A stretch of DNA of 64,000 bases, taken from Frigoribacterium sp. VKM Ac-2836 (GTDB lineage: Bacteria > Actinomycetota > Actinomycetes > Actinomycetales > Microbacteriaceae). Position numbers and translations under genes: made by a program. Under the pieces are notes generated by a model. It was not told the origin of the DNA and made no database searches. It saw only the letters and a list, made by a program, of their open reading frames with translations. The stretch covers positions 124,001 through 188,000 of the forward strand of contig NZ_JABRPK010000002.1 of assembly GCF_013248995.1 (NCBI RefSeq), read 5' to 3'. The stretch's first letter is position 1. Every line of letters begins with the position of its first letter. Below, in pieces: positions 1-16,815 of the stretch.

Positions 1-2
1 TC

Positions 3-317
3 CCCTCGTGCACCACGTACGACCCGGTGATCGTGGCCGACCTCAGGACGGAGGCCCTCCCCGCCTGCGCACCGCACGGGGTCGAGATGCGGTTCCCCGA
101 CGGTTTCGTCATCGACCTGCCCGACGAGCCCGGCACCGGCAGCCGGTCCGGCGGAGGACACGACTACACGTACGTCGACGTCGGCGCTTTCGGCATGTAC
201 GCCTCCCAGGCCGATCGCGCCTGCGAGCAGATCGAGCAGTGGGGCACGCCCGAGGCCATCCGCCGCGTCACCGAGGCCTTCGGCGACGACTACGCCTGCG
301 CGACCGGGCACCGCTGA
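3..317 (+). CDS. 3' end of an unrecognised protein, cut by the window edge
   Basis: An open frame enters from the left edge and stops at TGA 315-317, giving at least 104 residues. It has no domain I recognise. It is fairly acidic, with a glycine-rich turn (GTGSRSGGGHDYTY) followed by YVDVGAFGMYASQ and ending ACATGHR. A GTG at 27 could start a 96-residue protein, but the frame stays open upstream and no clear ribosome binding site precedes that GTG. A truncated longer gene is therefore more likely. No function is proposed. Confidence 0.5.
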   Translation, partial: PSCTTYDPVIVADLRTEALPACAPHGVEMRFPDGFVIDLPDEPGTGSRSGGGHDYTYVDVGAFGMYASQADRACEQIEQWGTPEAIRRVTEAFGDDYACATGHR

Positions 318-320
318 CCC

Positions 321-335
321 GAGGAGGCGCGGGTC
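321..335 (+). repeat. Dispersed repeat GAGGAGGCGCGGGTC, exact copy
   Basis: This is an exact copy of a 15-mer found seven times exactly in this window (here, 26051, 27755, 30478, 32848, 33776 and 47371), far above chance. It lies three bases after the stop codon of the first gene. The remaining intergenic DNA to 516 shows a short GATC run near 431-444 and no gene. Confidence 0.8.
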
Positions 336-516
336 GGTGGACGCGGAGCCAAGTCGTGATGAGTCGCGATGCTTTTCATCCGGGCACCGATCGGTTGAGA
401 AGACACAGGGGCGTCCGCACCGGGCGAGGCCGATCGATCGATCGACAGGGTGTCCAAGAACCTCAGTCACTCCCCCGTGACGAGCACCTCACAGATCGGT
501 CCCTACGCCGCTGCCA

Positions 517-1020
517 CTAGTTCCAGGCGGCAGGGTCCACAGTCACGTGCAACCGCGCCGTTCCGGGATTTTCCTGACGGTTCGCCTCGAACGCAAAGAT
601 GTCGAGGAGTAATTGCTCCACGAATTTCGCCTGCCTGTTGCTGCCGCGCCAGGTCGTGACCTCGACCGGCATACCGTTTCCCAGACGCTTGGCCTCGAGG
701 TGTCTGCGCAGTCGTGTGCCGATCCCGATTCCGGTTTTCCCGACGTAGACGGCGTCGTAGACCTCCTTGTCGTGCACGTCGCAGAAACCGATGGCCCGCC
801 AAAGTACGTAGACGCCGGATTCCTTGTCGAGTCCGAGACCTTGGACGAACTTCTTGATGCCGTCTTCCGAGGGCTCGAGATACCACCCGTCGTGATTGTC
901 GAGCAGATCCGTCAAGTTCACGCCGAACTTGGTCTCTACGGCCATGGCTTCATCGAAGAGTCGATCCGCTGCGCGATCGAGGCAATTGAATTCGCACGTC
1001 TGAACGTCGTTGTCCTGCAT
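517..1020 (-). CDS. GIY-YIG nuclease-fold protein
   Basis: The protein has 167 residues. The second half carries the GIY-YIG signature: GVYVLW at residues 69-74, then YVGKTG at 92-97, followed by GTRLRRHL (candidate catalytic Arg at 103 or 105) and FVEQLLLDIF with the expected metal-binding Glu at 135. The fold is used by homing nucleases, UvrC, restriction enzymes and some repair proteins. Here it stands alone with an N-terminal domain of about 65 residues that I do not recognise (acidic, with LTDLLDNHDGWY). No methylase or helicase is adjacent, so the role is open: DNA repair, defence or a stand-alone nuclease. The fold call is firmer than any function. Confidence 0.72.
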   Translation of the reverse strand: MQDNDVQTCEFNCLDRAADRLFDEAMAVETKFGVNLTDLLDNHDGWYLEPSEDGIKKFVQGLGLDKESGVYVLWRAIGFCDVHDKEVYDAVYVGKTGIGIGTRLRRHLEAKRLGNGMPVEVTTWRGSNRQAKFVEQLLLDIFAFEANRQENPGTARLHVTVDPAAWN

Positions 1021-1089
1021 GAAGCTCCCCCGCGTGGTCGTCGTGACCCAGACGATACCGGCAGAGACGTGTCATGCGGTGTCACAACA

Positions 1090-1102
1090 GGAGGCGCGGG
1101 TC
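1090..1102 (+). repeat. Dispersed repeat, near-exact copy
   Basis: GGAGGCGCGGGTC lies between the GIY-YIG gene and the dehydrogenase gene. It matches 13 bases of the 15-mer core described at 321-335. The rest of the 187-base gap shows no gene. Confidence 0.65.
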
Positions 1103-1207
1103 GCCCTCACTGCAACACGATCGAGTTGCCGATCGTCGCGGATCGGAACCGCTTCGACCATGCGAGGATCGGCAGCCCAATGGCAGGTAGTTCTGTGAGG
1201 CTAACGG

Positions 1208-2263
1208 CTAACCGTTCGGCGCGACGAGCACCTTCGCGTGCTGGGTCTTGCCGCTGTCGAGCTCGTCGAGGAGGTCCGGCAGATCGTCGAGCCCGACCGT
1301 CCCCGTGATCAGCGGCCCGGCATCGACCGAGCCGTCGGCGAGCGCGCGCATCGCGCCGACGAAGTCGGAGTGCGTGTAGGCGAGGCTGCCGATGACGGTG
1401 AGCTCGCGGCTCTGCCAGTCGCCGTACGAGACCTCGGAGGTGGTCATCGGGTAGCCGAGCAGGGCGAGGGTCCCGCCGCGGCGCACCAGCTCGGCGCTGG
1501 ATTGGAACAGCGAGGAGGCGCCGGTGCACTCGTAGAGGACGTCCGCGCCGAGTCCGTCGGTCAGGTCGAGCACCCGAGCCGTGAAGCCCTCGCCGGGTGC
1601 GTGGACGTCGGTGAAGCCGAGGCGGCGGGCGGTCTCGCGCCGCGCCTCCGTGGGTTCGACGATGACGACGGCTCCGGCGCCGGCGTGGCGGGCGTGCTGG
1701 GCGGTGAGCAGGCCGATGGGGCCGGCACCCTGGACCACGACGACCGAGCCGAGGCGCTGGCCGGCGCGGCGGACGGCGTGGAAGGTGACGGCGGTGGGTT
1801 CGACGAGGGCGAGCTGTTCGTCGCTGAGGCCGTCGAGGGCGCGTTGGACGCGGCGTTCGTGGACGGTGACGTGCTGGGCGAAGGCTCCGTGGGTGGGGGC
1901 GTCGGGTGAGATGCCGTTGGCTTCGGCGAAGGCGGTGTCGCAGTGGTCGGGGTGTCCGGCGCGGCACATGGCGCAGCTGCCGCAGGGCGGTCCGACGCTG
2001 GCGACGACGCGGTCCCCCACGGCGACAATCGTGACCTGGCTGCCGGCGGCGAGGACGGTGCCGGTCCACTCGTGGCCGAACACCGCGGCGGGGATGAGCC
2101 CGCCCGACGCCCACCCGTGCGTGTCGGTGGCGCAGACGCCCGTGTAGCGGATGCGCACGACGACCTGCCACTCCCCCGGAGCCTCGAGATCGGCCTCGGC
2201 GAAGGCGACCGAGCGCTCGGCGTCGACGGTGGCGAAACGGGTGCGGGCAGGCAGGTCGGTCAT
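1208..2263 (-). CDS. Zinc-dependent alcohol/polyol dehydrogenase (MDR family)
   Basis: This 351-residue medium-chain dehydrogenase likely oxidises an alcohol or polyol with NAD(P). The N-terminal GroES-like domain has the catalytic zinc ligands Cys44 (TGVCATDTHGW) and His64-Glu65 (GHEW), and the four structural-zinc cysteines at 94, 97, 100 and 108. A Rossmann motif, GAGPIGLL, follows near residue 178. The start MTDLPARTR is chosen because the conserved domain begins soon after it and the open frame upstream is unlike the family. Substrate cannot be told from sequence; relatives include threonine, sorbitol and other sugar-alcohol dehydrogenases. A decayed second copy of its 5' end lies at 6871-7030. 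Confidence 0.88.
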   Translation of the reverse strand: MTDLPARTRFATVDAERSVAFAEADLEAPGEWQVVVRIRYTGVCATDTHGWASGGLIPAAVFGHEWTGTVLAAGSQVTIVAVGDRVVASVGPPCGSCAMCRAGHPDHCDTAFAEANGISPDAPTHGAFAQHVTVHERRVQRALDGLSDEQLALVEPTAVTFHAVRRAGQRLGSVVVVQGAGPIGLLTAQHARHAGAGAVVIVEPTEARRETARRLGFTDVHAPGEGFTARVLDLTDGLGADVLYECTGASSLFQSSAELVRRGGTLALLGYPMTTSEVSYGDWQSRELTVIGSLAYTHSDFVGAMRALADGSVDAGPLITGTVGLDDLPDLLDELDSGKTQHAKVLVAPNG

Positions 2264-2467
2264 GCAGCCCAGGGTAGACGTGGGCGACAGGTGTTGCCCT
2301 ATCAAGCGCGCGTCACGAGGACTCACCCTAGTTGCGCCGCGACCACTCGGACGCCTCAGATCATCGAGTAGAAATTGCTCTCGGACTCCGACCCCACCGT
2401 GTTGGCCGATGCAGGCAAGCCGCTTCCGAACACGAACGCCACGACTGCGGAGGCGGACCACGCGCCG

Positions 2468-3712
2468 CTAGTCCGTCGTCAGCCTGGCTCGACGCAGCGG
2501 CCCGATGAAGAAGGCCACTGCGGCAGCGACGACCACGAGGCCTGCACTCGTCATGAAGGCGGCGTCAAGGCTGGACAGCGCGACACCCTGGCCGAAGAGG
2601 ACGTAGGCAACCGGGGTGAGGCCGAGTGCCGAGAAATTGACGAGCGCCATGACACGTCCCAGGTATCGACGTTCTGTTCGCGCCTGGATGAGGCCGACGA
2701 GCAGTGCGCTTCCCGGGCCGAAGGCGAAGCCGGCGAACGCGACGGCGAGCGCGGCGAGCGGCAGGTTCGGCGCGAGAGGGACGAGCCCGATGGCGAATCC
2801 ACCGAGCATGATCCAGACGAGCGCCACGAGGGCCGGGCGCTGGACGCGCTTCTGGAATGCGACGGTCAGCGCACCCGAGATGGCACCGAGGGCGTAGGCG
2901 CTCAACACCAGGCTGTACATCGCCGCTCCCCAGCCCCTCTCGCCGCTCAGGAGGACGAGACCGACGTTGAGCGGCCCTGCCAGGCCGAGGTTCAGTGCGG
3001 TCACGACGATCAGCGTGCTGAGCAGGGCCTTGTCCGTAGCCGCGAACCTCAACCCGCCCGTCAAGGAGGCCCAGATCGATTCGTCGACGGCGTTTTTCTC
3101 GGAGAGCTTCGCGGGGCGGTCCGTGACTCGACGGAGGGACCGCAGCATGAGCCACGCCACCGAGAACAGCGCCACGTTGACGACCATGGCGGCGGGTAGT
3201 CCACCGAACGCGACGACGAGGCCACCGAGGGGCGCTCCGGCGACGAGAGCTCCTCGCTCGAGGGACTGGACGAACCCCTGCCCGGCGGGCAGGTCGTCCG
3301 GCTCGAGGAGTTGAGGCGGGAGAGCGGCCGCGGCCGGCATGTGTGCCGCGTCCAGCACGCCGAACAGCAAAGCGATCACGAGCAGCGGCCACAACTCTCC
3401 GGCACCGACGACGAACACGAGCACCGCGCCGGTCGCCATCAAGAGGATGCGGCCGATCTGGCTTGTGAGCGCGACCGTGAGCGCCCCGAAGCGATCCGCC
3501 GCCGCCCCACCGACCAGCAGGAGCAGCGCTCGAGGAACCGAGCCCGCGGCCATGACGAGAGATGTCTGGCCCGGTGAGCCCAGCTGACTCGCCGCCCAGG
3601 CCAGGGAGACGAACCAGATCTGATCGCCGATGAGGGAGGCCCCGAAACCACCGATGTAGAGCTGGAACGGCCTTTTCCGTGCGGCGTTGCCGCGCCTAGG
3701 TTCCTTGCTCAT
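2468..3712 (-). CDS. MFS transporter, probable exporter
   Basis: The 414-residue protein is almost wholly hydrophobic, with about 12 membrane segments, beginning FQLYIGGFGASLIGDQIWFVSLAW. It resembles the MFS group often annotated as enterobactin or macrolide exporters (EntS/MefA-like), with RYLGRVMALVNF in the second half. The start MSKEPRRGN overlaps the end of the upstream ArsR-type regulator gene by 17 bases, so the two are translationally coupled. It lies divergent from a peptide-modification operon and could export that product, but this is inferred from position only. Known family members act as drug or siderophore efflux pumps. Confidence 0.82.
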   Translation of the reverse strand: MSKEPRRGNAARKRPFQLYIGGFGASLIGDQIWFVSLAWAASQLGSPGQTSLVMAAGSVPRALLLLVGGAAADRFGALTVALTSQIGRILLMATGAVLVFVVGAGELWPLLVIALLFGVLDAAHMPAAAALPPQLLEPDDLPAGQGFVQSLERGALVAGAPLGGLVVAFGGLPAAMVVNVALFSVAWLMLRSLRRVTDRPAKLSEKNAVDESIWASLTGGLRFAATDKALLSTLIVVTALNLGLAGPLNVGLVLLSGERGWGAAMYSLVLSAYALGAISGALTVAFQKRVQRPALVALVWIMLGGFAIGLVPLAPNLPLAALAVAFAGFAFGPGSALLVGLIQARTERRYLGRVMALVNFSALGLTPVAYVLFGQGVALSSLDAAFMTSAGLVVVAAAVAFFIGPLRRARLTTD

Positions 3713-4322
3713 CGGGACCGCCACCCTCCGAGCCGATCGGGAAGGCGTGGAAGAACGTGAAGATCCGTGCTCGGGCGGGTGCGGCCTTGTCGGGTGGCGT
3801 CGCCTTCGCGGCCCGTGAACGATCGACCCAACGTGCAACGACGGTCTCCATCTCGGCCCCGAACTGCTCGAGTTCGTCCTGCGACAGGGTGAGCATGGAG
3901 TCCGAGCTGCGAGCGGCGGCGGACCAGGCAGGTCCCCACTCGGCCGAGCCCGAGTCGAGCCATTCTCGGAGCCGCGCGACTCGACGGGTCGCGATGACGT
4001 GTTCTGCAGCTCGGAGGACGGCGCGCGACCCCGGCGAATCGGGGAAGTCCTCGGCCGACCAGTGCAGCCCCCCAGGGGATGCGCGCCACCATCGTTCGCG
4101 CCCGTCTCGAGAGAGGTCGTCGGCCTCGTGCACGAGGTCGTGGCTGGAGAGCTGACGGAGGTGGTAGCTCAGGGTGTTCGACGGAATCGACAGCTTTCGT
4201 GACAACTGGGTGGCCGTCGACGGGCCTTCGGTGGCCAGTAGCTCGTACAACCTCACGCGGAGCGGATGAGCGATCACCCGAAGGGTCTCGAGTTCTCTGA
4301 TCCGCCCGGTTTCGTCGGTCAT
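3696..4322 (-). CDS. ArsR-type winged-helix transcriptional regulator
   Basis: The 208-residue protein has an N-terminal winged helix-turn-helix: LRVIAHPLRVRLYELLATEG, then TATQLSRKLSIPSNTLSYHLRQL as the recognition region. This is the pattern of the HTH_20/ArsR group. The rest is charged and tryptophan-rich, probably a ligand or dimerisation domain. The ATG at 4320-4322 starts directly at the conserved part. The gene is followed by the MFS exporter in the same operon and faces the peptide/radical SAM operon across a 104-base gap holding TTGCG/CGCAA half-sites, so it may repress one or both directions. A metal-sensing CxC motif is not seen. Confidence 0.85.
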   Translation of the reverse strand: MTDETGRIRELETLRVIAHPLRVRLYELLATEGPSTATQLSRKLSIPSNTLSYHLRQLSSHDLVHEADDLSRDGRERWWRASPGGLHWSAEDFPDSPGSRAVLRAAEHVIATRRVARLREWLDSGSAEWGPAWSAAARSSDSMLTLSQDELEQFGAEMETVVARWVDRSRAAKATPPDKAAPARARIFTFFHAFPIGSEGGGPDEQGT

Positions 4323-4340
4323 GAGCCCGCCTCTCAGTTA

Positions 4341-4360
4341 CGCAAACAATATTGCGCAAT
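4341..4360. promoter_or_regulatory. Candidate operator in the divergent promoter region
   Basis: CGCAA-N6-TTGCG (4341-4356) overlaps the perfect palindrome ATTGCGCAAT (4351-4360), and another TTGCG follows at 4366. These are alternating half-sites in the 104-base gap between the regulator (minus) and the peptide gene (plus). The position suits an ArsR-type repressor. No convincing -35/-10 pair could be fixed. Confidence 0.45.
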
Positions 4361-4426
4361 CGGTCTTGCGTCCACTTTCGACGGCCATCTAGCGTCAGGT
4401 ATATGAGGTGAGAGGGGGTGGGGAAC

Positions 4427-4489
4427 ATGGAGATCGACGTCTACGAGATGGAAGACGAAGCGCGCGACGTCTGCGGCGTCAAGGGCTGA
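4427..4489 (+). CDS. Putative RiPP precursor peptide, 20 residues
   Basis: A tiny frame encodes MEIDVYEMEDEARDVCGVKG and stops at TGA 4487-4489. A purine-rich ribosome-binding stretch (AGAGGGGG) lies just upstream of the ATG. The peptide is strongly acidic, has one Cys, and ends CGVKG. It is the first gene of an operon with a radical SAM enzyme and a JmjC/cupin-4 oxygenase. This arrangement is typical of ribosomally made, post-translationally modified peptides. The acidic stretch followed by a CGV tail recalls mycofactocin precursors (which end CGVY), though the match is very short. An in-frame GTG at 4418 would add three residues. That this frame is translated and modified is inference from context. 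Confidence 0.6.
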   Translation: MEIDVYEMEDEARDVCGVKG

Positions 4490-4550
4490 ACCAGGGCTCG
4501 ACCGGGGCCCGAGGCCGCTGAACTCGTCGGCTTCCCGCCTTGCCCGACCG

Positions 4551-4586
4551 TCGAGTGGTCCTCCCCCGACCAGGAGGACCACTCGA
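4551..4586 (+). terminator. Intercistronic 14-bp hairpin (attenuator or processing site)
   Basis: The arms TCGAGTGGTCCTCC (4551-4564) and GGAGGACCACTCGA (4573-4586) pair perfectly around an 8-base loop. No T-run follows. The hairpin lies between the precursor peptide and the radical SAM gene, where RiPP operons commonly use a partial terminator or RNA-stability hairpin to raise precursor mRNA over enzyme mRNA. Confidence 0.65.
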
Positions 4587-4620
4587 TGATCGGTCTCGAA
4601 CAACGAGAAATGAGAGGCTC

Positions 4621-5859
4621 ATGAACCAAGCCACCGTCGAACGAGTCGTAGACGATTCCATCCGAATCCTTCCTGGCGCCGGAGGGTGGTGGGCTGTCTC
4701 CGGATCGCAGATCGCGCGGCTGCCCCGACAGGCGGTGCCCGACGGCACATCGCGCCGTCTGACCGAGGTCGCGATGTCAGCGCTGGCTGAGAAGGGTTTC
4801 CCTCGCCTCGTCGAGGATTCCAACTACGCCGTCACGGTCTTGACCGCCACGGCCTGCAATCTCGGTTGCGCTTATTGCTTTCAGAACACCGCCTTGCCGC
4901 GAGAAGGAAGCTCCGCACCGCCCCGCATCAAGACAGCCGTCCTGACCCCTGCTCTCGTCACGCAGGTGGGCGCCTTCGTCAGACAGCAGATGACCCGTAG
5001 TCATCTGGATACCAGCAGTGTCCTCATCTTCGGCGGGGAGCCCCTCCTGAATCCTCGAGGGGCTCTCGGGGTCCTGCACGAATTCAGGCAGAACAACATG
5101 CGCATGTCCGAGATCGTCACCAACGGCGTGCTCCTCAAGAAGCAGCTGTCCCGAGAACTCGAAGACGCGGGTCTACATCGCGTCCAGATCACCTTCGACG
5201 GTCGGCGGGACGTGCACGACACTATCCGCGTCACGCGCAATGGACGGCCGACCTACGACAAGATCCTGTCGAACGTCGCCGACGCCGTTGCCTCGACCGA
5301 TCTCACATGGAACTTCAGGGTCAACGTCTCGCACCGGAACTTGGACGACCTCGAGACGGTCATCGACGATCTGCAGCAGGCGTTGTCTGGCAAGACAGCC
5401 AGCTTTCATCTGGCCCTGATCGACGACGTCGGCCTGGGCTACGACAACGACGTCGTCTACAGCGCGGAGCACGCCGAGCGTTTCATCGAACTCAACTCGC
5501 GAGCCATCGGGGCAGGGATGACCATTCCCGTGTCAAAGCCGCTCAAGGATTGTCCCTATTGCGGAGTCAAGGGCGGCTCCCAAGGTGCCGTCGTGAACGC
5601 CGACGGGGTCCTCTACAGCTCGTGGGAGACCGCCGGCCGAGCCGAGTGGGCGGTGGGCACACTCAGTGACGGCTATCGACCGACGGGCGAACTCGACGAT
5701 CTCTGGGTCGCGTGCGACTTCGACATCGCGGAGCACGGTTCGACCGAAGAGACGCGGGGCTTCTTCGACCGCGTCGACGGCGCCGCTCTCGACGACATGT
5801 ACCGGACCGAAGACCCGACGAGTGCACCGATGCACGTGACCACACAGGAGCGATCATGA
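4621..5859 (+). CDS. Radical SAM/SPASM-like peptide maturase
   Basis: The 412-residue protein has the radical SAM cluster motif CNLGCAYC at residues 79-86 (CxxxCxxC), followed by FQN, then FGGEPLL at 137-143, the usual GGE SAM-binding motif. A reduced C-terminal auxiliary region has CPYCGVKGG at 311-319, the SPASM-like GAVVNADGVLYSSWE segment with Ser where a cluster Cys is often found, VGTL, and Cys365. The cluster is thus SPASM/twitch-like but degenerate. The ATG at 4621 has GAGAGG upstream. Its stop overlaps the next ATG (ATGA). Residues CGVKG (314-318) repeat the last five residues of the upstream peptide. It most likely modifies that peptide; the reaction is unknown. Confidence 0.82.
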   Translation: MNQATVERVVDDSIRILPGAGGWWAVSGSQIARLPRQAVPDGTSRRLTEVAMSALAEKGFPRLVEDSNYAVTVLTATACNLGCAYCFQNTALPREGSSAPPRIKTAVLTPALVTQVGAFVRQQMTRSHLDTSSVLIFGGEPLLNPRGALGVLHEFRQNNMRMSEIVTNGVLLKKQLSRELEDAGLHRVQITFDGRRDVHDTIRVTRNGRPTYDKILSNVADAVASTDLTWNFRVNVSHRNLDDLETVIDDLQQALSGKTASFHLALIDDVGLGYDNDVVYSAEHAERFIELNSRAIGAGMTIPVSKPLKDCPYCGVKGGSQGAVVNADGVLYSSWETAGRAEWAVGTLSDGYRPTGELDDLWVACDFDIAEHGSTEETRGFFDRVDGAALDDMYRTEDPTSAPMHVTTQERS

Positions 5860-6830
5860 CCAGTTTCGACACCATCATTCGAGCCCTCGGCGGCCCGGAC
5901 ACCTTTCGTGCTGCCTTGGGCGAGCGTCACCTCGTCGGGGTGACTCCCGTCGACCCTTCGACATTGATCTCGTGGTCAGATCTGGACGACCTGATCACTA
6001 CGCGTCGACTCGTGCCGCCCCACCTGAAGGTGGTGAACGACGGTCGGTCGTTCCCCGCGAGCGCCTACCTGGATCAGACCAGCTCACCCCGCCGTCGGCA
6101 GCAACCTGTCGTCGACGCGGCGAAGCTTCAAGCCCTCCTCTCGAAGGGAGCGACGCTCGTTATCAATGACCTACAAGAGATCGCACCCAGGGTCACGGAG
6201 GCGGCTCAAGCGCTGTCCGAGCTGACCCACGAACGGGTCCAGGCGAATTCGTACGCCACCTGGGGCAAGACACGCGGGTTCGATCCGCACTGGGATGACC
6301 ACGACGTCCTCATCGTTCAGGTCGAGGGCCAGAAACACTGGGATATCTTCGGGCCCGGAACGCAGGCGCCCCTCGATCATCAGGTCGATGCCGACAACGA
6401 GCGCCCCTCCCTCCCCGTGTGGCACGGCAATCTGCTCCCCGGTCAGGTGGTCTACCTTCCTCGGGGATGGTGGCACGCCGTCCGGGGTTCGGGCGATCAC
6501 TCCTTGCATCTGACCTTTGGTTTTCAGCGGCGTAGTGGTCTCGATTACTTCCGTTCCCTCATCGGCCACCTCGAACACGAACCTGCGTTCAGAGAAGACC
6601 TCCCGGCCTTCGGAACCCCTCGAGAGAAGGAGGCGCACCAACAGCGAATGTTGGGAGCCCTGAGCGCCGTCCTGGCCAACCACGACAGCCAGAGCTTCCT
6701 TGACGACTTCCGACAGCTCCTCCAGCCCACGCGGCCACTCGACCTCGGCGCGATCGCCCCCTCTCGCGAGAAGGCGCCCGAGGAGGGCGTGGTCGACGAA
6801 CACCCGATTCCCGCCCCTGCAGCTGTGTAG
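5856..6830 (+). CDS. JmjC/cupin-4 (ROX-type) Fe(II)/2-oxoglutarate oxygenase
   Basis: The 324-residue protein matches bacterial ribosomal-oxygenase-like cupins. The iron ligands are visible: PHWDDHDVLIVQVEGQKHW gives His145 and Asp147 (HxD), and YLPRGWWHAV gives His207. The family hydroxylates protein side chains using O2 and 2-oxoglutarate. The start overlaps the radical SAM stop by four bases, so the two are co-translated. In this operon it probably hydroxylates the 20-residue peptide or a radical-SAM intermediate. It could instead be a housekeeping ribosomal-protein hydroxylase, but the operon position argues against that. The C-terminal part (about residues 240-324) is helical and variable, as in ROX dimers and winged helices. 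Confidence 0.8.
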   Translation: MTSFDTIIRALGGPDTFRAALGERHLVGVTPVDPSTLISWSDLDDLITTRRLVPPHLKVVNDGRSFPASAYLDQTSSPRRRQQPVVDAAKLQALLSKGATLVINDLQEIAPRVTEAAQALSELTHERVQANSYATWGKTRGFDPHWDDHDVLIVQVEGQKHWDIFGPGTQAPLDHQVDADNERPSLPVWHGNLLPGQVVYLPRGWWHAVRGSGDHSLHLTFGFQRRSGLDYFRSLIGHLEHEPAFREDLPAFGTPREKEAHQQRMLGALSAVLANHDSQSFLDDFRQLLQPTRPLDLGAIAPSREKAPEEGVVDEHPIPAPAAV

Positions 6831-6870
6831 CCGTGTCGCCCCAAATCGAGGCGCTTGCCGAGGGATGACC

Positions 6871-7030
6871 GCGTCACCAGCGGTCCCCCACGGTGACGGT
6901 GCCCGTTCACTTGCAGCCGAACGCCTCGGCGAGGATGCCCACCCGTGGGTGTCTCGCGCCCACACGCCCGTGAAGCGAATGCGCATCACGACGTGCGACT
7001 CCCCGATGCCTCGAGATCGGCCTCGGCGAC
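6871..7030 (-). pseudogene. Decayed fragment of a zinc alcohol dehydrogenase (5' part)
   Basis: Read on the minus strand, this stretch aligns with the N-terminal part of the intact dehydrogenase at 1208-2263. It keeps RIRFTGVWARDTHGWAS against RIRYTGVCATDTHGWAS, plus the GDAV region around the conserved cggtcccccacgg. Two internal deletions remove the His-Glu zinc motif, and the first catalytic Cys is now Trp. No frame continues into a functional enzyme. It points to a duplication or insertion event that placed the regulator/peptide cassette between two dehydrogenase copies. Confidence 0.75.
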
Positions 7031-7431
7031 GATCCCGGCTCGAACCCGTCGCCGTACGGCGGTCATCCGCCTCAATGACCGTAGGGCGCAGTGCGACCCC
7101 TAGGCGGCCAGGGAGAGAACTTCGGCGCGTAGTAGAGGAGCGCTAGCTCCGCGTGCCGAAAGTCTCGGAGGAACCGCTGGCGTAGCCACTCGAACGAAGA
7201 CCTGGAGGTGGCTACGAGGAACCGCAGCGACCGAGCAGCCGAAGGCTGCACGGCAAACAACGGCCTTCCAGTGCCACACGGCTCGGGGCGCAGCGGCGAC
7301 TCAGTTGGGAGCGCCGCGAGTGGGCTAGGCCGTTGCTTCATCGGACGACATTCGCCGGGTGGGGTGGTCCGCCGTGCTTGTACGGTTTACGAAGCCCCGA
7401 CCAGCAGACTGTGCCTGCGGGGTGGTAGTCA
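7031..7431. other. Gene-free stretch
   Basis: I see no convincing gene. A minus-strand frame at 7072-7341 (89 residues, with FEWLRQRFLRDFRHAELALLYYAPKF) could be a gene remnant but matches nothing I recognise. A 7-bp inverted repeat, TAGCCAC/GTGGCTA, lies near 7185-7216. Confidence 0.35.
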
Positions 7432-7515
7432 CGGAGAAGTGGCAGAGTGGCCGAACGCGGACGACTGAAGATCGTTAGACGGCACAGTCGTTTGGGCCTT
7501 CAAATCCCCCTTCTG
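7432..7515 (+). pseudogene. Class II tRNA-like relic (Ser-like body, GAA in the anticodon loop)
   Basis: The 5' half reads like a bacterial tRNA-Ser: GGAGAAGTGGCAGAGTGGCCGAA. An anticodon arm GACGA-CTGAAGA-TCGTT, a long variable arm and a T-loop TTCAAATCC follow. The T-stem has two mismatches, and the acceptor stem pairs at only about five of seven positions (GGAGAAG with CTTCTgg). No 3' CCA is encoded. A GAA anticodon on a class II body would be abnormal. I read it as a decayed tRNA or a tRNA-derived attachment-site remnant at the start of the accessory stretch. Confidence 0.4.
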
Positions 7516-7593
7516 GCCCTCTGCCGCTCCCTGGTGCTCGGTCTCGATCACGCTTTGACCGCAGCGTCGCAGCGGAGCCGACAACCAATCGGT

Positions 7594-7700
7594 CACCGAG
7601 CACCGGTGGAGGCTGGCCACTCCCTCGCAGCTACGGTGCCGGCTGTCTCGATAGGTCAGGCCGAAACGGATGTCGATGAACGATCCCCTACCGGGCGGCC
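7594..7700 (+). repeat. Direct repeat copy A bounding the PIG-L module
   Basis: The segment around CGCAGCTAC ... TGTCTCGATAGGTC ... CCGAAAC ... GATGAACGATC recurs in the same orientation at 11374-11484 with roughly three-quarters identity. The two copies bracket the PIG-L/acetyltransferase module. The sequence is noncoding and resembles a degenerate mobile-element end. Confidence 0.6.
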
Positions 7701-7793
7701 TCCGCGGCCGGCTCAGGAAGGCTCATCATCGCGTCACCCTTTAGTAACAAGCTCCACCTGAGTAGCCCACAAGTGCCAATGCATGCGAGCGTG

Positions 7794-7814
7794 CATCATG
7801 CATCATGCATCATG
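7794..7814 (+). repeat. Three tandem CATCATG heptamers at a start codon
   Basis: Three perfect CATCATG units run end to end. The last ATG (7812-7814) is the likely start codon of the first PIG-L gene. Because the unit is 7 bases, gain or loss of one unit changes spacing and reading-frame relations in front of the gene. Confidence 0.75.
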
Positions 7815-8837
7815 CGTCTTGAAGAAACCTCAGCCTCTACGCCTCGCGCCCGGAAAATAACAATCGTTGGGGTAGCGCTCGTCCTGGCCACCGTCTCTCT
7901 TGGGCTAGCTCCGATAAGCGCGCACGCTGTAGGCCCAAAACAAGTGAGCTACATCCTCGCGCCGCATCCTGATGACGAATTTCAGTCTTGGTCACTTGTT
8001 GAAAACTCGCCCGACAATTACAAGGTGTTCATCACAGCAACCCGCGGCGAAGAAACAAGTCTTTGCGAACCGGGCAACTACAACGCCGCTTTGCAAGCTT
8101 CGCTTGGGGAAACTGCGCAGTCTCCGTCACCTGCGGGCAGATGGACCACCAGTTGCGTGGCGGCAAGGCAGGAATCACAGATTCGATTCCTGACCCAGAT
8201 GTCAAGTGCCGACGCAAGTATTCCTGGCTCGTTCGGCACCAAAACTACGGTCGGCCCATTTGCGGCAAACGGCGCCAGCCTCTGTCGGTCGGACAATGGC
8301 GTAAATTCCTGCAGCGCCGCGCAAAGGACCGCGGATGTGTGGATCGACTCTCAAGGTCGCGGAGCCGTCGTCAGCTTCGACCTGGGAGACGGCGATCTTA
8401 ATGCCGCTGAGGTTGCCTGGACGGTTGCTACGGTTCGCGACAACCGTGGTGCCCTCGGCATCAATTCGTCCCTGCCCAACTTCAACGTCGTCGGAGCGTT
8501 CTCGAACACCACCACTGCGTGCGTGGCATACCCGCACGTGGACCACCGCGCAGTTCATCAGGCGCTTTGGAACACCGACTTCGGGTTCCGTTGGCAAGCC
8601 GCCGCCACATGCGCCGGCGACCCCGACCAAAGTCGGGCTGGCACGGTTTCAGCGAATGCCGTTCAGTCAGCGTTCGCGATGAGCGGGTCTGACCAAGATT
8701 CTCTATCTGCAAATCGCCTCGGTGCCCACGTCAAACAATATGGTTGGCTCGCAGGCGACTATTACCACGTAGACCGGAACGGTCAGTCATTGCTCTTCCA
8801 CTCCCACCAAAATTTCTGGATCCGATTCTTGAGATAG
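7812..8837 (+). CDS. Secreted PIG-L (LmbE-like) family deacetylase
   Basis: The 341-residue protein has an N-terminal signal sequence (ITIVGVALVLATVSLGLAPISAHA), followed at once by YILAPHPDDEFQSW with the PIG-L zinc motif HPDDE at 52-56. A second motif, YPHVDHRAVH, supplies the later zinc ligand. The family removes acetyl groups from N-acetylglucosamine in small thiols, lipids or glycans; a secreted form most likely acts on a cell-surface or environmental sugar. It is paralogous to the convergent gene at 8873-9868 (HPDDEFQ-W, QGRGAVV-DLGDGDL, QGAH-YGWL-YY shared). The start is set at the ATG of the third heptamer repeat, as no strong ribosome site is visible; an earlier ATG at 7773 is possible. 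Confidence 0.8.
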   Translation: MRLEETSASTPRARKITIVGVALVLATVSLGLAPISAHAVGPKQVSYILAPHPDDEFQSWSLVENSPDNYKVFITATRGEETSLCEPGNYNAALQASLGETAQSPSPAGRWTTSCVAARQESQIRFLTQMSSADASIPGSFGTKTTVGPFAANGASLCRSDNGVNSCSAAQRTADVWIDSQGRGAVVSFDLGDGDLNAAEVAWTVATVRDNRGALGINSSLPNFNVVGAFSNTTTACVAYPHVDHRAVHQALWNTDFGFRWQAAATCAGDPDQSRAGTVSANAVQSAFAMSGSDQDSLSANRLGAHVKQYGWLAGDYYHVDRNGQSLLFHSHQNFWIRFLR

Positions 8838-8872
8838 GAGTTGCTAAACGGACTAGTAGGGGCTCCAAGCCA

Positions 8873-9868
8873 TTACGGGGCAAATCGCGTCCAGAAGTAC
8901 TGATTCTGGGTGAATAGCTCCGTCTGCCCACGTCGGTCGACGGGGTAGTACGTCGCGTCCAGCCAGCCATAGTTGTAAGTGTGAGCGCCTTGCCTCACGC
9001 CGTTGGCGTCGACGGCAAAGGCGGCCTCGACGACATCGTCGCTGACCTTGCGGTGAATCACGCCGGCTGGGTCGTCGGCGCACGTGGCTGCTAGTTGCGG
9101 ACCGGCGTTGAAGTTGGTCGACCAGAGGGCGTCGTGGACCGCGACGTGATCGGGGTGCGGGTAGCTGAAGCAGTCATATCGTGAGTTTGCAAAACTCCCG
9201 AAGATTCCTCCGTTCGGCAGCGTGTGCTCGAGCCCGAGGCTTTCCCTGTTCGCCACAACAGTGGAGACACCCCAGCGGACTTCATCTGCGGTCAGGTCAC
9301 CGTCGCCGAGATCAAGCATCACCACGGCGCCGCGTCCCTGTCGATCGACCCAAACCTGGGCGTCGTGGTCTTCGACGGTGCAGTCGGGCCCGTCCTTCCG
9401 GCACACTGTGCCAGCTTCTGCCGGGAAGGGGCCTGCCACCGCTGGCGCGGCGAAGTCTCCAGGGATGGTCGGGTCCGTTTTGGCCATCCCTGAGATGTAG
9501 TCGATCAATGAATGAGCTCGTGCCTCGCCACATTTTTCCCCATTGCGCCCATCCGGAATGGGGTCTGCTGCAGCCTCGAGACCAGGTTGGTAACTGGCTG
9601 CATAGCCGCCGGGCTCGCAGTACTGCGTCTGTTCACCATTGGTGAGGACCAGAAAGACTTTGTACTGATCCGGTGTGTCTTCGATGAGTGACCATGCCTG
9701 GAACTCGTCGTCCGGGTGAGGCACGACGATATAGGTCACCTCACGGGGTGTGGTGTCGTGCATCCTCGACACCTGCAATGCCGAGGTCGTGCCGGTGATC
9801 AGCACGGCGACCACGACGATCCAGCCGATCCATGCGCGATTCCGGGTTCCGGCCCGTCTTCTGGCCAT
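8873..9868 (-). CDS. Membrane-anchored or secreted PIG-L (LmbE-like) family deacetylase
   Basis: The 331-residue paralogue of the convergent gene has a basic N-terminus and one hydrophobic segment (AWIGWIVVVAVLITGTTSAL) that is a signal anchor or signal peptide. HPDDEFQAW follows at 51-59, and YPHPDHVAVHDALW carries the later metal ligand. The ATG at 9866-9868 has GAGAACGG upstream on the mRNA. It lies 23 bases after the stop of the acyltransferase gene on the same strand, so the two form an operon. The pair fits removal of an acetyl group outside the cell and its re-addition through the membrane enzyme, but the substrate is unknown. Confidence 0.8.
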   Translation of the reverse strand: MARRRAGTRNRAWIGWIVVVAVLITGTTSALQVSRMHDTTPREVTYIVVPHPDDEFQAWSLIEDTPDQYKVFLVLTNGEQTQYCEPGGYAASYQPGLEAAADPIPDGRNGEKCGEARAHSLIDYISGMAKTDPTIPGDFAAPAVAGPFPAEAGTVCRKDGPDCTVEDHDAQVWVDRQGRGAVVMLDLGDGDLTADEVRWGVSTVVANRESLGLEHTLPNGGIFGSFANSRYDCFSYPHPDHVAVHDALWSTNFNAGPQLAATCADDPAGVIHRKVSDDVVEAAFAVDANGVRQGAHTYNYGWLDATYYPVDRRGQTELFTQNQYFWTRFAP

Positions 9869-9891
9869 TTTCCGTTCTCCAGTTTTCTTGG

Positions 9892-11181
9892 TCACGGGCG
9901 TAGGTAGATCTTGTGGCGGTGCAGAACGCTTGCGAGTCCGATCCAGAAGAGCAACAGCACAAGGGTCCATGTGGCTTGACGGTGTCCGGCGATCGCAATC
10001 GCCGATGCCCAATCGAGCGCAAGACTCGATCCGGATGCCGTCGGGCGCGATAAGACACTCATCACGACGTGTGAGCCGAAGTACACGAGCAGACTGTTTC
10101 GACCCAGGCCGAGCAAAGGGAAGCTTCCGATTGCTAGGCCCTTGCCCACTTTGTCTCGATCCAAGATCAAGTGACCGATTAGCAGTGCGATAGCAGCTCC
10201 CGCACCCACCCGAAAAGCGAAGGGTGCAGTCCACAGTCTCTTCATTGCTGGCAGTTCGACTCCGCCCAGGAGAGCGGGCAGTTGGGCAGCTAGTTCTCCA
10301 AGGAACAGGGCAGCGAGGCCCAGCCCGAGAAGAGGTACGACAGCGGCGCGCACACCGCTACCTGTTCGCTGGCCACGATTACGCATGGCCAGCATGAGAT
10401 GGCCAATGCAAGCCCCTATCGAGGCGCTGACAAGAGCCCCGAAAATTGCCACAAGCCCTTCAGGGTCGTGCCCTGCCAAACCAAGCCGGTACACGTGATT
10501 GGCGCCGAAAATAGCGATATCGATGGGGCCGGCCGGGTTACATCCGGGTGTGAGCAGGCCCGCTGGGCAACCGAGTGCGTAAACGGCAAGAAGGGTCGAA
10601 TGCGCACCCGCGAGAAGAATCGTGATGACAGCCCAACCAATCCACGAGCGCGTCACGAGATGCAGCAAACCCATTGCGGCGACCACGACGGCATAGAGCT
10701 GAAGTACGCCAGTCACGCGCCAGGTGTCTAACTGCCAGGAGTTGAGGACGATTGCGTTGTAGAGCAGGCCAGCTAGCAACAAGACCAGCATCCGGCGCAA
10801 CAGCGGGGCGACCTTCACACGCCGGTGCATTGCAAACGCCAGGCCACAGCCGGAGAGGGTCACGAAGAGGGGAAAAACGAGGTCGAGTGGATGAACTGAA
10901 CCCCAGGCGGCGTGATCAAACCATTCGGGCGTCATGAGCAGGCTGTTCACTGCGACGCTGACGACAAGCATGATCCCGCGAACCAGATCTAGGCTGGCGA
11001 TTCGGGGCCGTGGCGAATTCGGGGGCGCTGTTGCGCCAGTAGAGGCGGGCCTTTTCTGTGGTCGTTGAGCCACTTCCCCGGAGCCAAGGTCGTCAAGAGC
11101 CAACGGGGACGATTCGAGATCAGCCGTGGCGAATGGCTTCTCGCCATCCAAACCTTTATCCGGCCAAGAGCTGGTGGTCAT
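9892..11181 (-). CDS. Membrane acetyltransferase, HGSNAT/DUF1624-like
   Basis: The 429-residue protein has about 60 disordered N-terminal residues, then RIASLDLVRGIMLVVSVAVNSLL and some ten membrane helices. The SLDLVRG signature and the HPLDLVFPLFVTLSGCG segment are typical of the heparan-alpha-glucosaminide N-acetyltransferase-like family, which moves acetyl groups across a membrane to amino sugars. The late motif LGLGRNSLLVYFGSHVV is also family-like. It is the first gene of an operon with a PIG-L deacetylase, so both enzymes may tune acetylation of the same amino sugar. An OpgC/Acyl_transf_3-type O-acyltransferase is the main alternative. Confidence 0.72.
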   Translation of the reverse strand: MTTSSWPDKGLDGEKPFATADLESSPLALDDLGSGEVAQRPQKRPASTGATAPPNSPRPRIASLDLVRGIMLVVSVAVNSLLMTPEWFDHAAWGSVHPLDLVFPLFVTLSGCGLAFAMHRRVKVAPLLRRMLVLLLAGLLYNAIVLNSWQLDTWRVTGVLQLYAVVVAAMGLLHLVTRSWIGWAVITILLAGAHSTLLAVYALGCPAGLLTPGCNPAGPIDIAIFGANHVYRLGLAGHDPEGLVAIFGALVSASIGACIGHLMLAMRNRGQRTGSGVRAAVVPLLGLGLAALFLGELAAQLPALLGGVELPAMKRLWTAPFAFRVGAGAAIALLIGHLILDRDKVGKGLAIGSFPLLGLGRNSLLVYFGSHVVMSVLSRPTASGSSLALDWASAIAIAGHRQATWTLVLLLFWIGLASVLHRHKIYLRP

Positions 11182-11809
11182 TAAACCTCGAAAGCCATGA
11201 TCGACAGACGTCCACGCCTCAAAACGTGCGCCCGGCGGCCTCGAAAGAGGCCTTCAGTCAAGACTACCTCGGCACGTTTCACCCAATCTAAGTGAGCCCA
11301 GTCGAAGGCTGTGGCACGACGGCCACCAAGCCAAAGCATCAGACCTATTTGGGCCCGTCTCGCTAGACGATCGATCACCGACCGCCGGCGGGTGCTGGCC
11401 AGTCCCCCGCAGCTACGTGGTACCGGATGTCTCGATAGGTCCGTCCGAAACTGATCCCGGTGAACGATCGGCTATCGGGCACTCCGACGCCCTCAGGCGA
11501 GCTCGGATCAGACGAAGTTCGCTTCCACCTGGAGCGCACGCCTGAATTCCCCGACCACGCGCAGTAACCGATGGCTCTTCGTTCCTAACCGTTGCTCTCG
11601 CCACCATCTGGAATTTTCTCAAGGCCGGCCGGAAAAAGGCCCGTGCCGCCGCCTGGCTCGAGAACTATGAACGCATACTCACCCGACGAGGCGCACTGCC
11701 CGGACGGTCCGGCCAAACTGGGCGGCAAGCCCACCCCCTCCTGAGCCAACGGGGTAATCCGGGGGTAATCGGAGTGCAATTTCGGAGGTGATGTGTCTAT
11801 GATCGGGCC
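11182..11809. other. Gene-free stretch with a repeat and a small hairpin
   Basis: The stretch holds the promoter side of the acetyltransferase operon, a hairpin GGCCTC-GAAA-GAGGCC (11237-11252), repeat copy B (11374-11484), and a short double gggGTAATc near 11752-11769 just before the antitoxin. GGAGGTGAT at 11784-11792 looks like a ribosome site but lies 18 bases from the antitoxin ATG. No gene is supported. Confidence 0.5.
11374..11484 (+). repeat. Direct repeat copy B bounding the PIG-L module
   Basis: Same-orientation partner of 7594-7700. Blocks in common include CTGGCCA-TCCC-CGCAGCTAC, ATGTCTCGATAGGTC/CTGTCTCGATAGGTC, CCGAAAC-GAT and GAACGATC. The copies lie about 3.8 kb apart and could mark a past insertion or recombination. 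Confidence 0.6.
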
Positions 11810-12190
11810 ATGCCTACAAGCACAGTCACTGGTCAGCACACGAGAACCGCTCGAATGGATATCCATCAAGTGGCCGATGAACTTGTCCGCGGGCTGGGTC
11901 CCACTCTCGTTGCCGCACTGACAGGCTCCAGAGATCGCAAATTGCCGGCGAAGTGGGCAAAGCCCGATGGCCCCACCCCGACGGTGGCATTCACTCAGCG
12001 CCTGCAGCTAGGGCATCGAGCTTGGGCGACCCTTGTCACTGATGAAAGCGCGCATATCGCTCGCCAATGGTTCATTGGCGGCAACCCTCTTCTTGGCGAG
12101 GACACCCCCCTCACCGCGATCCGAGAGGACAGAGGAAAAGAAGTCATTGAGGCTGTCGCGGCGTTCTTGAGCGATGAGCCGGACGCTTAA
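11810..12190 (+). CDS. Antitoxin, Xre/MbcA/ParS toxin-binding type
   Basis: The 126-residue protein ends in the toxin-binding module ARQWFIGGNPLLGEDTPLTAIREDRGKEVIEAVAAFLS (residues about 83-121), the hallmark W-x-x-x-x-N-x-x-L-x-x-x-x-P pattern of antitoxins paired with RES toxins. The N-terminal part has only weak helix-turn-helix resemblance. It ends two bases before the RES toxin gene, so the pair is one operon, antitoxin first. It should neutralise the toxin and probably repress the operon. An internal ATG at 11855 (MDIHQVADELV) is an alternative start. Confidence 0.78.
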   Translation: MPTSTVTGQHTRTARMDIHQVADELVRGLGPTLVAALTGSRDRKLPAKWAKPDGPTPTVAFTQRLQLGHRAWATLVTDESAHIARQWFIGGNPLLGEDTPLTAIREDRGKEVIEAVAAFLSDEPDA

Positions 12191-12192
12191 GC

Positions 12193-12957
12193 GTGGGCGG
12201 GGGAACGACATGTTCGGTAACTGGATTGCACTTGGTGCCCGAGCTGGGGGAAACAACCTTCCGAATCGCCAAACCTAAGTTCGGGCCCCTGTCCGCGCCA
12301 GAACGGACAATCCGAACAGCGCGAAAGCGCTGGGGCCGATACGACTCTGGAGGAAGCACTCTGTACTTGGCTCGGGAAGCAGAGACGGCCTTTGCCGAGG
12401 TCCTGTCGCCGTTCAAGCGCCAGCTTGCATCAACAGATCCACTGGAAAAGGATGCTGCGGAGCTCGGTCTCACTCGGAGCGATTTCCTCGAGATCGTGTC
12501 CGCGGAATGGGACGAAGAACAGTTCATGGGCATGGGCGCCGTCCCCCAGCAGTGGCGCGTTGATCGGTGCATCTACCAGGTCAACGGCGAGGGAGACGGC
12601 TGGTGGATCGACGTTGAGCACCCCGACTCGCTCGCACTTCTGGAGGAGCAGCTCGAACCCGTCCTCATTCGGCAAGGCGTTAAGAGCCTGACTACCGCTG
12701 TCCTGCGGGGTGAGAACCGAATTGTGACCACAGCCATCGGTGCGCACCTTCGACACCTTCCGGTCCTCGGCGGATCACCGGCGCGCGGTTTGCAGTTCGG
12801 AAGTAAACACGGTGGCGGGTGGTGCCGCGCGGCGTGGCTGCCGAGCCCATACGACTCTTGGACGGCGGATTTCATCGCCACTAGCGGGGAACCAATCCTT
12901 GTCACCAACGAACATCTCGCCCGGGCAAGCGAACGGTTCCGCATCAAAGTCTTCTGA
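12193..12957 (+). CDS. RES-domain toxin (NAD+-consuming)
   Basis: The 254-residue frame shows the RES family features: FRIAKPKFGPLS with the conserved Arg near residue 24, RWGRYDSGGSTLYLAREAETAFAEVL with the conserved Tyr and Glu, and a C-terminal SGEPILVTNEHL. RES toxins (MbcT, ParT, Xre-RES) degrade or transfer from NAD+ and stop growth. The GTG at 12193 lies two bases after the antitoxin stop and implies translational coupling; the conserved part begins a little later, so a downstream GTG is possible. At 254 residues it is longer than the shortest family members (about 150-230). Together with the upstream gene it forms a type II toxin-antitoxin module in the accessory region. Confidence 0.78.
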   Translation: MGGGTTCSVTGLHLVPELGETTFRIAKPKFGPLSAPERTIRTARKRWGRYDSGGSTLYLAREAETAFAEVLSPFKRQLASTDPLEKDAAELGLTRSDFLEIVSAEWDEEQFMGMGAVPQQWRVDRCIYQVNGEGDGWWIDVEHPDSLALLEEQLEPVLIRQGVKSLTTAVLRGENRIVTTAIGAHLRHLPVLGGSPARGLQFGSKHGGGWCRAAWLPSPYDSWTADFIATSGEPILVTNEHLARASERFRIKVF

Positions 12958-12995
12958 CGCTCTGACCGGCTAGCGCCGTTGTGCTCGATGGCCGC

Positions 12996-13268
12996 TCAGA
13001 GGTGGTTCCGGATCCAGTCGTTGACTTCTTTCGACACTCCGTGCGTCGCCCAGGATTGCCCGGTGACGGTGACGACGGCAACAGCGTCGTTGCTGTCAAC
13101 GATCTCGCTGATGCCGTCGCGCAGCTGCTTCGCGGTGAGGTCAGTGTCGACGAAGTAGCTGCTCTTCGCTGGCCGCGCCCAGCTCCGGTGCGACTTCAAG
13201 TATGTAATAAGGGCCTCGTACTTCTGCCCGGTGGTGTTCAGGTCGTAGTTCACCCAGTGAACGGCCAT
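12996..13268 (-). CDS. SinR-family small protein (Cas2-like fold)
   Basis: The 90-residue protein MAVHWVNYDLNTTGQKYEALITYLKSH... matches the small family annotated as SinR, with the VNYDL...G..Y..L...L opening typical of a ferredoxin-like, Cas2-related fold. There is no CRISPR array or Cas1 here, so adaptation is not implied. The ATG at 13266-13268 has AGGAGA upstream on the mRNA. The gene lies 76 bases after a 51-residue gene that often looks like its partner. The role of the family is not established; the name should not be confused with the Bacillus biofilm regulator. Confidence 0.6.
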   Translation of the reverse strand: MAVHWVNYDLNTTGQKYEALITYLKSHRSWARPAKSSYFVDTDLTAKQLRDGISEIVDSNDAVAVVTVTGQSWATHGVSKEVNDWIRNHL

Positions 13269-13344
13269 GGTTGTTCTCCTATCAATGCGATGCGCTCTAG
13301 TGAGCGGGTGGGCTGCGAGAAGGTCGCAGCCCACCCGCCGCTGA

Positions 13345-13500
13345 TTACTTTTCGTTCCGGACACCCTTGTGCTGGTTCGCGCTCCCGTTGAGGATGCGAC
13401 CCGTGCTGGTATCCCGCTTGAACCACTGACCGTTGTGCTGGAACTCGCTGCGTCCCTTGACGGCACCGTTGCGGTGCCCGTTGCCGGTGTTCTTTGCCAC
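13345..13500 (-). CDS. Conserved 51-residue basic protein (KNTGNGHRNGAVKGRS type)
   Basis: This GTG-started frame is short and easily missed. It encodes VAKNTGNGHRNGAVKGRSEF, then a Gln/Asn/Lys-rich remainder ending GVRNEK. A strong ribosome site (GGAGGTG) lies about nine bases before the GTG. I recognise the NTGNGHR-GAVK-RS opening and the G-VR-EK ending from small conserved bacterial proteins of unknown function. It precedes the SinR-like gene on the same strand and is probably co-transcribed. It is basic and probably unstructured or nucleic-acid binding; no function is claimed. Confidence 0.7.
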   Translation of the reverse strand: MAKNTGNGHRNGAVKGRSEFQHNGQWFKRDTSTGRILNGSANQHKGVRNEK

Positions 13501-13697
13501 TGTTGTATTCACCTCCGCTCTGAGCGAGAGTCGGCGGTTTCGCCACGCTCACTCAGTAGTCGGAAGGACAGTCGCCGAGTTAAGCCCCTAGTGCAGATAC
13601 TTCCGCGACATGTCGGCACGGCGGTGCAGCAAAGAGCAGGGAGACATCGAAGGAGTGGAGCTGCAGAGCACGACGCCCCGCGCCATGCGGCGGCAGG
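13501..13697. other. Intergenic region upstream of the 51-residue gene
   Basis: The stretch holds the ribosome site of the small gene and the 3' end of the ImmA operon. I see no other gene or clear hairpin. Confidence 0.4.
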
Positions 13698-16775: not shown

Positions 16776-16815
16776 GCTTGCACCCAGAACCAGGCCAAAG
16801 TGACCCGCGAAACAC

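Follow-up and report, generated by a model that had tools for sequence, protein, structure and literature searches.

A 20-residue peptide gene beside radical SAM and JmjC enzymes in Frigoribacterium looks like the smallest member of a large, apparently undescribed bacterial peptide family

What is a frame of only 20 codons doing in front of a radical S-adenosylmethionine (SAM) enzyme and a JmjC-type oxygenase? The question is raised by a locus of Frigoribacterium sp. VKM Ac-2836, lying within a stretch of 64,000 nucleotides (contig NZ_JABRPK010000002.1, positions 124,001 to 188,000; hereafter the window). A first-pass annotation made from the letters alone had proposed a three-gene peptide modification locus here, and the three genes lie where it placed them (Table 1). 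From left to right, the region holds a Zn-dehydrogenase gene, a major facilitator superfamily (MFS) gene, and an ArsR gene on the minus strand, followed on the plus strand by the peptide gene, a hairpin, the radical SAM gene, and the JmjC_2 gene. A conserved, gene-encoded precursor beside a modifying enzyme is a hallmark of a ribosomally synthesized and posttranslationally modified peptide (RiPP), and it is found here. We consider the RiPP reading to be probably right. In full, with a probability of roughly 0.72, the locus would make a RiPP from a one-unit, 20-residue precursor whose Cys is joined by the radical SAM enzyme and which is hydroxylated by the JmjC protein and exported by the MFS protein under ArsR control. 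Judged by its relatives, the locus looks like a minimal member of a large and apparently undescribed bacterial family of radical SAM-modified peptides.

The short frame is preceded by the purine-rich GAGAGGGGGTGGGG, and an alternative GTG start at 4418 could yield a 23-residue peptide. The 20 residues resemble a single unit made up of a strand, IDVYE (residues ~3 to 7), an acidic linker, and the core VCGVKG. Peptides of the same short type stand in related radical SAM loci from other genomes (given L-numbers here): MKIEIFETTERVVCGINL in L003, MTRVRIEVLDVEDRVICNVYG in L096, MEHTEETIVVFDTEEAADTCGVRTGT.. in L004 and L005, and MLAVTEAIEIVELADCDLVCSNK in L006. In these peptides, a strand (IEIFE, IEVLD, or IVVFD, for example) leads into an acidic stretch and then to a Cys, which none of them lacks, followed by G, N, or S. 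A profile of four peptide kinds (L003, L096, L004, and L006; window excluded), run on the 759 window frames of 14 to 60 amino acids, ranked the window peptide first with an E value of 2.2e-5, the next frame having 1.6. This first rank leads us to reject a chance frame: by its profile match the peptide is real and conserved, and the first-pass view of it as a companion of the radical SAM enzyme stands. The accompanying label "leaderless" is probably wrong, since a conserved strand and acidic linker precede the Cys within the 20 residues, as in the EVVAHS-type unit that longer precursors repeat. No second copy of the peptide was found in the 3.27-Mb genome with the DNA pattern CG[VIM]xG + TRR, which matched twice, once at the locus and once at a site ending TGG; because a backwards control pattern matches 3 + 2 times, the count speaks for uniqueness only. 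The motif CGVKG is common to the peptide and the enzyme (CPYCGVKG). We considered mimicry and treat the sharing as coincidence, because the L003 enzyme has CPFCGEFAGG and the L003 peptide CGINL.

Ten actinobacterial relatives of the radical SAM enzyme, at 39 to 50% identity, were found in a scan of genome contigs. In alignment searches at E 1e-40, matches came from 9 of the 394 genomes sampled in the class, the window's own among them, and from two family samples (12 of 250 genomes and 36 of 249), a few genomes being shared between these samples; at E 1e-60, 5 of 200 genomes of L003's family matched. Among 299 genomes of the window's own family, the only close match was in its own genome, the best in the other 44 genomes reaching at most 34.5 bits. 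We oriented 66 loci and kept 57, window included, after dropping L008, L113, L147, L148, and L149 as duplicates and L097, L098, L145, and L146 as truncated or distant. A short acidic unit with a conserved Cys near the C terminus, in 1 to 12-13 copies per precursor, occurs in 55 of the 57 (47 found by pattern; seven by hand, namely, the window, L003, L004, L005, L006, L011, and L096; plus L129). No unit was found in L122 and L142, nor in L154 from the E 1e-60 search, and no convincing precursor was seen in the four truncated or distant loci.

The frequent form of the unit is EVVAHS-acidic-P-W-C-[GVI]-[IVT]-[NHY], repeated up to 12 times in one frame (13 by a looser pattern). Precursors upstream of the radical SAM gene in L132, L138, L144, and L134 carry 4 to 12-13 similar tandem units, such as EVVAHSGEDTPWCIGHSEENAVAGP, and L100 has up to eight separate small precursor genes. 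Among 111 distinct units from the 55 loci, 101 of 110 (one doubtful unit dropped) contain just one Cys when counted from position 9 onward; units were collected by requiring a Cys and aligned on it, which makes the Cys 100% conserved by construction. The residue after it (+1) is mostly G, V, or I, followed by I or V at +2 and N, H, or Y at +3. Pfam and NCBIfam cutoffs were reached by no precursor tested: the L106 precursor, which has three units and is the frame also found in L069, matched Pfam WW_TCERG1 (22.1 bits; cutoff of 70), three more Pfam models, and three NCBIfam models at 12 to 14 bits, all of them below the cutoff and set aside. In L155, a frame ~120 to 890 bases before the radical SAM match repeats ACGIQIGAP and is without the EVVAHS strand; it may be a further kind of precursor used by this maturase family.

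The radical SAM protein carries the CxxxCxxC motif as CNLGCAYC, together with GGE, and its only Pfam domains are PF04055 (E value of 1.3e-15) and PF13353. The first pass had also read a degenerate SPASM domain, which agrees with the absence of the SPASM model from Pfam matches at E 0.1 and with the retention of three of the four common C-terminal cysteines (C311, C314, and C365): S334 replaces the fourth, which is common in the ten aligned sequences, and L009, read from DNA, has the same Ser. The enzyme is thus without the full SPASM/twitch cysteine set of ranthipeptide and sactipeptide maturases. Its best NCBIfam matches, over residues 64 to 350, are TIGR04463 (118.5 bits; cutoff of 525) and CefB (116.3; cutoff of 600), and SCIFF (57.4/425 bits) and PapB (64.1/340 bits) are likewise below their cutoffs; among the matches listed, neither the window enzyme nor five relatives reached any NCBIfam cutoff. 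The nearest solved structure by both sequence and fold is CteB, whose entry title concerns thioether formation; because the TM-scores are 0.53 to 0.62, we take this likeness to support the fold and not the reaction. Three strands and one clear helix can be made out in the predicted N-terminal region (pLDDT ~80 to 88), the CteB match being to the whole model without aligned ranges, and no RRE-type domain was matched by Pfam at E 0.1 in the scanned proteins. An antiphage viperin was also considered and rejected, the PADLOC pVip matches (49.4 and 38.6 bits) covering only residues 76 to 253, the shared radical SAM core.

The overlapping cupin-4 oxygenase of the first pass is borne out by a 4-nt overlap with the radical SAM gene, the motif H145-x-D147 ... 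H207, and a PF08007 score of 86.6 bits (cutoff of 22), which place the protein among JmjC_2/ribosomal-oxygenase-type hydroxylases. The same annotation suggested checking whether the oxygenase co-occurs with such peptides. It does recur alongside them, but just 6 of the 57 loci (the window, L011, L128, L131, L133, and L150) have it within 9 kb of their radical SAM gene. In L011, the genes run radical SAM, MFS, JmjC, and prolyl oligopeptidase (POP), and the JmjC protein is 45% identical to that of the window. In L128, L131, L133, and L150, the JmjC gene is ~8 kb from the radical SAM gene, and the precursor, with cores in this group that include CGVQFG and CGIQFN, is ~7 kb away, directly upstream of the JmjC gene on the same strand. 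From the density of JmjC matches in 53 genomes, we would expect roughly 0.1 near the 57 loci. In the tree, the six JmjC loci fall into the window branch, L011, and one clade (L128, L131, L133, and L150); since the placement of L011 is unsure (long branch, open fork), there would be two or three events, three independent ones having a rough P of 1.5e-4. The window groups with L003 (support 88/89), outside the starred class. Each of the six JmjC-linked loci has one or more units in which a Gly follows the Cys, and because +3 varies among K, Y, and Q, the JmjC target residue is not deducible from the cores. An excerpt of PMC12710340 mentions JmjC homologues from bacteria in RiPP-like settings.

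These elements suggest the following pathway. The N-terminal region of the radical SAM enzyme would be the docking site for a strand formed by residues ~3 to 7 (IDVYE), after which comes the acidic linker. The enzyme would then generate a radical in the core and join the peptide's only cysteine, C16, to a residue close by. A thioether is the most likely bond, at slightly better than even odds in our estimate, and some other radical chemistry at the core is a tentative alternative. The JmjC protein may subsequently hydroxylate a core side chain, with K19 or V18 as candidate sites; a host or undetected peptidase would trim the strand, and the divergent MFS protein would export the product with the ArsR-like regulator in control.

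Several points weigh against this pathway, whose chemistry is read from sequence. In contrast to PapB substrates, the core of the window peptide lacks an Asp/Glu following the Cys, so an acceptor of another kind would be needed (D14, before the Cys, or V18 or K19). The modeled N terminus of the radical SAM enzyme does not reach the order of three strands and three helices that PMC12710340 requires, the predicted JmjC structure is poor (pLDDT of 63.6), and we saw no gene for a peptidase next to the window locus. A profile of 108 long-type units alone ranks the window peptide only fifth (E value of 4.5), and short and long units combined put it first narrowly (0.42 versus 0.50). Since the long-unit profile fails to single the peptide out, its link to the long type runs through the short relatives and the shared enzyme; sequence comparison by itself ties it clearly to the short relatives and weakly to the long type. 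Lastly, 51 of the 57 loci have no JmjC gene in the flanks examined (~5 kb in L003 to L012, mostly 6 to 9 kb elsewhere, less at contig ends).

That last count also bears on whether the JmjC protein belongs to the pathway at all. The radical SAM enzyme might modify the peptide while the oxygenase acts elsewhere, for instance on a ribosomal protein, the two genes being adjacent by chance or co-regulation. MINA53 and NO66 act on ribosomal proteins, and a sequence comparison with solved structures puts MINA and NO66 closest to the JmjC protein. We nevertheless think a separate target unlikely, given the overlap of the two genes, the related JmjC gene in the L011 cluster, the direct adjacency to the precursor in four loci of one clade, and the excess of six observed over ~0.1 expected, in two or three events. 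A different doubt concerns the bond: a mycofactocin-like product would arise by decarboxylation and a C-C bond at the C-terminal residues, with no Cys cross-link, and some cores (VICGVYDKE; ICNVYG in L096) do resemble the MftA C terminus. The window core, however, has no Tyr, and what the units have in common is the Cys (on which they were aligned), not a C-terminal Val-Tyr. The MftC model TIGR03962 (cutoff of 265 bits) scores only 38.3 and 36.8 in L007 and L010 and is outside the best 25 matches listed for the window and the other three relatives scanned, which makes such a product improbable in our view.

It is similarly improbable, we think, that the frame is a regulatory leader peptide whose translation, together with the hairpin, controls transcription of enzymes acting on some other target. 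This explanation draws on the strong hairpin directly after the frame: the stretch between the peptide and radical SAM genes (4490 to 4620) has a fold z of -6.07, and the corresponding values in all four short-type relatives are -4.6 (L003), -4.8 (L096), -6.7 (L004), and -4.9 (L006). The value in L011 is -1.76. Among 37 loci with a precursor near upstream, z is below -2 in 22 and below -3 in 16, so that 15 of the 37 fail even the weaker threshold. What is conserved, moreover, is the amino acid sequence, as the profile result indicates; relatives encode the unit several times per frame, up to 12-13, and in four loci the precursor lies ~7 kb off beside the JmjC gene and not before the radical SAM gene. 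No Rfam family at gathering scores was found in 3600 to 8000, no tRNA in 1 to 20000, and no sigma-70-like promoter in 4200 to 7000.

If the peptide is indeed the substrate of a RiPP pathway, its tailoring appears to be modular. The trio of peptide, radical SAM enzyme, and oxygenase described in the first pass is not the defining unit across the family: other loci carry a methyltransferase, a POP, a glycosyltransferase-like protein, or a DUF6895 protein. In the flanks of the 57 loci (fragments G994, G845:C167, and G303:C184 left out of the counts), POP occurs in 30, a glycosyltransferase-like protein in 36 (our own name for a protein with no Pfam match at 0.001), a DUF6895 protein in 17, and a class I methyltransferase in 10, and S8 subtilase, GAF, and cyclase/ATPase genes are recurrent. 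DUF6895 is termed an epimerase in the title of a lasso-peptide paper cited in PMC13352647. A second, different radical SAM enzyme lies within several kilobases in 14 of the 66 oriented loci (L099, L104, L105, L106, L115, L121, L124, L125, L129, L132, L134, L136, L138, and L144).

The presence of POP goes with the sequence of the precursor. A Pro within four residues before the Cys was found in 23 of 29 POP loci versus 5 of 25 non-POP loci (Fisher P of 2.5e-5). The association persists when relatives are grouped by identity, at 80% (13/17 versus 3/17; P of 0.0016), 70% (10/10 versus 1/10; P of 1.2e-4), and 60% (4/4 versus 0/6; P of 0.005), with groups labeled by majority, which hides exceptions inside them. 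This association suggests that POP releases the core at the Pro preceding the Cys. The window peptide has no Pro and POP was not found beside its locus, which fits the link.

Besides the trio, the cluster probably includes the divergent ArsR regulator and MFS transporter, both additions to the first-pass annotation. Their order is kept in L003, where ArsR, MFS, and methyltransferase genes lie on the opposite strand at the place of the window's ArsR and MFS genes (ArsR identity to the window's of 39% in L003 and 35% in L096; MFS identity of 44% in L003). The window has JmjC and no matched methyltransferase; the flanks of L003, L004, L005, L006, and L096 show the reverse, with a methyltransferase present and JmjC absent. 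By DNA similarity, the peptide-enzyme stretch is present in 1 of 16 genomes of the genus, and the dehydrogenase is matched in 9 of 15 other genomes (in one only in part). In one congener, L157 (11396 to 13766), an MFS gene 82% identical in DNA lies beside the dehydrogenase, and ArsR, radical SAM, and JmjC matches are absent from the 17 kb examined; this gene may be a relic or a kept exporter. Dehydrogenase sequence flanks the window cluster on both sides, as the full gene on the left and, on the right, a 75% partial copy (6895 to 7029) of its 5' part (2054 to 2202). Because of the sparse distribution in the genus, the kept dehydrogenase, and this partial copy, the island looks acquired, at a variable site; no plasmid-borne copies were found at E 1e-40 in PLSDB. 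Farther right, two convergent genes at 7773 to 8837 (+) and 8873 to 10234 (-) have similar sequences with HPDDEFQxWSL, and both may be PIG-L-like deacetylases.

Table 1. Positions of the elements discussed, numbered from the first letter of the window
Feature	Coordinates	Strand	Basis
Zn-dehydrogenase gene	1208..2344	-	
MFS transporter, probable exporter	2468..3724	-	PF07690; L003 homologue in same order
ArsR-like regulator, divergent from peptide gene	3696..4322	-	PF12840; homologues upstream of peptide gene in L003 and L096
Precursor peptide gene, MEIDVYEMEDEARDVCGVKG, 20 aa	4427..4489	+	Frame reading (ATG 4427, stop TGA 4487-4489); first-ranked against four-relative profile; relatives' peptides
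Hairpin (stem of 16 pairs, loop of 8 bases), probably an attenuator or an mRNA-end element	4549..4588	+	Fold z-scores
Radical SAM peptide maturase (412 aa) with a small N-terminal region of three strands and a helix and, at the C terminus, a degenerate cluster domain	4621..5859	+	ATG 4621, stop ends 5859
JmjC_2 (cupin-4) 2-oxoglutarate/Fe(II)-type oxygenase, 324 aa	5856..6830	+	ATG 5856, stop ends 6830; PF08007, HxD...H

How does the locus compare with described systems? SCIFF/ranthipeptide maturases such as CteB and PapB are likewise radical SAM peptide maturases, with CteB the nearest structure and the substrate Cys conserved; the NCBIfam scores set the window enzyme apart from them, as does a substrate with mostly one Cys per unit and, in the window, no acidic residue after it, whereas PapB joins Cys to Asp/Glu (excerpt of PMC9413430). 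TIGR04463 and CefB (Cys-every-fifth) are the best NCBIfam matches, yet their names imply Cys-rich substrates, and the scores are far below the cutoffs. The biphenomycin cluster also combines radical SAM and JmjC proteins in one RiPP pathway, and its JmjC protein, BipG, is a reported ornithine hydroxylase; according to PMC12707348, however, its radical SAM enzyme is B12 dependent and works with an MNIO oxidase, and no B12-binding or MNIO domain was found in the window enzymes or scanned neighbors (MFS, ArsR, and Zn-dehydrogenase). Myxarylin and the biarylitides share a very small precursor and, for myxarylin, a leader that a prolyl oligopeptidase "likely" takes off, much as we suggest for those relatives that have a POP; in the same source (PMC12951456), cross-linking is by a P450 and not a radical SAM enzyme, and no POP was seen at the window locus. 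These precedents qualify the first-pass statement that no named class has this trio and so small a precursor. The precursor is not unprecedented in size, smaller ones being known among the biarylitides, and the pairing of radical SAM and JmjC proteins has been characterized in biphenomycin; the NCBIfam results, in contrast, are in keeping with the absence of a named class. We found no family name in NCBIfam, Pfam, or the literature (open-license main texts, supplements being outside the scope), and within the same texts nothing linking VVAHS to radical SAM enzymes or EVVAH to a precursor.

Altogether, we lean, if only a little, toward a widespread actinobacterial RiPP class that has gone undescribed, whose defining features would be this radical SAM enzyme and a strand-linker-Cys unit present once (18 to 29 residues, the window being minimal) or up to 12-13 times. 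Its tailoring enzymes (JmjC, methyltransferase, glycosyltransferase-like, and DUF6895) would be swapped between clusters, and POP would cut cores at the Pro before the Cys. If true, this would be a RiPP family whose maturase, in one actinobacterial family sampled, is matched in 36 of 249 genomes and whose tested maturases and precursors reach only the Radical_SAM and Fer4_12 cutoffs, with no more specific model in NCBIfam or Pfam. The locus would offer a natural one-unit substrate of 20 residues, handy for studying how such maturases recognize and cross-link their peptides, and the POP-proline link predicts cleavage sites that are testable in vitro. The family as a whole would form a natural series, from 1 to 12-13 units and with or without POP, JmjC, and methyltransferase, in which substrate sequence and enzyme content covary.

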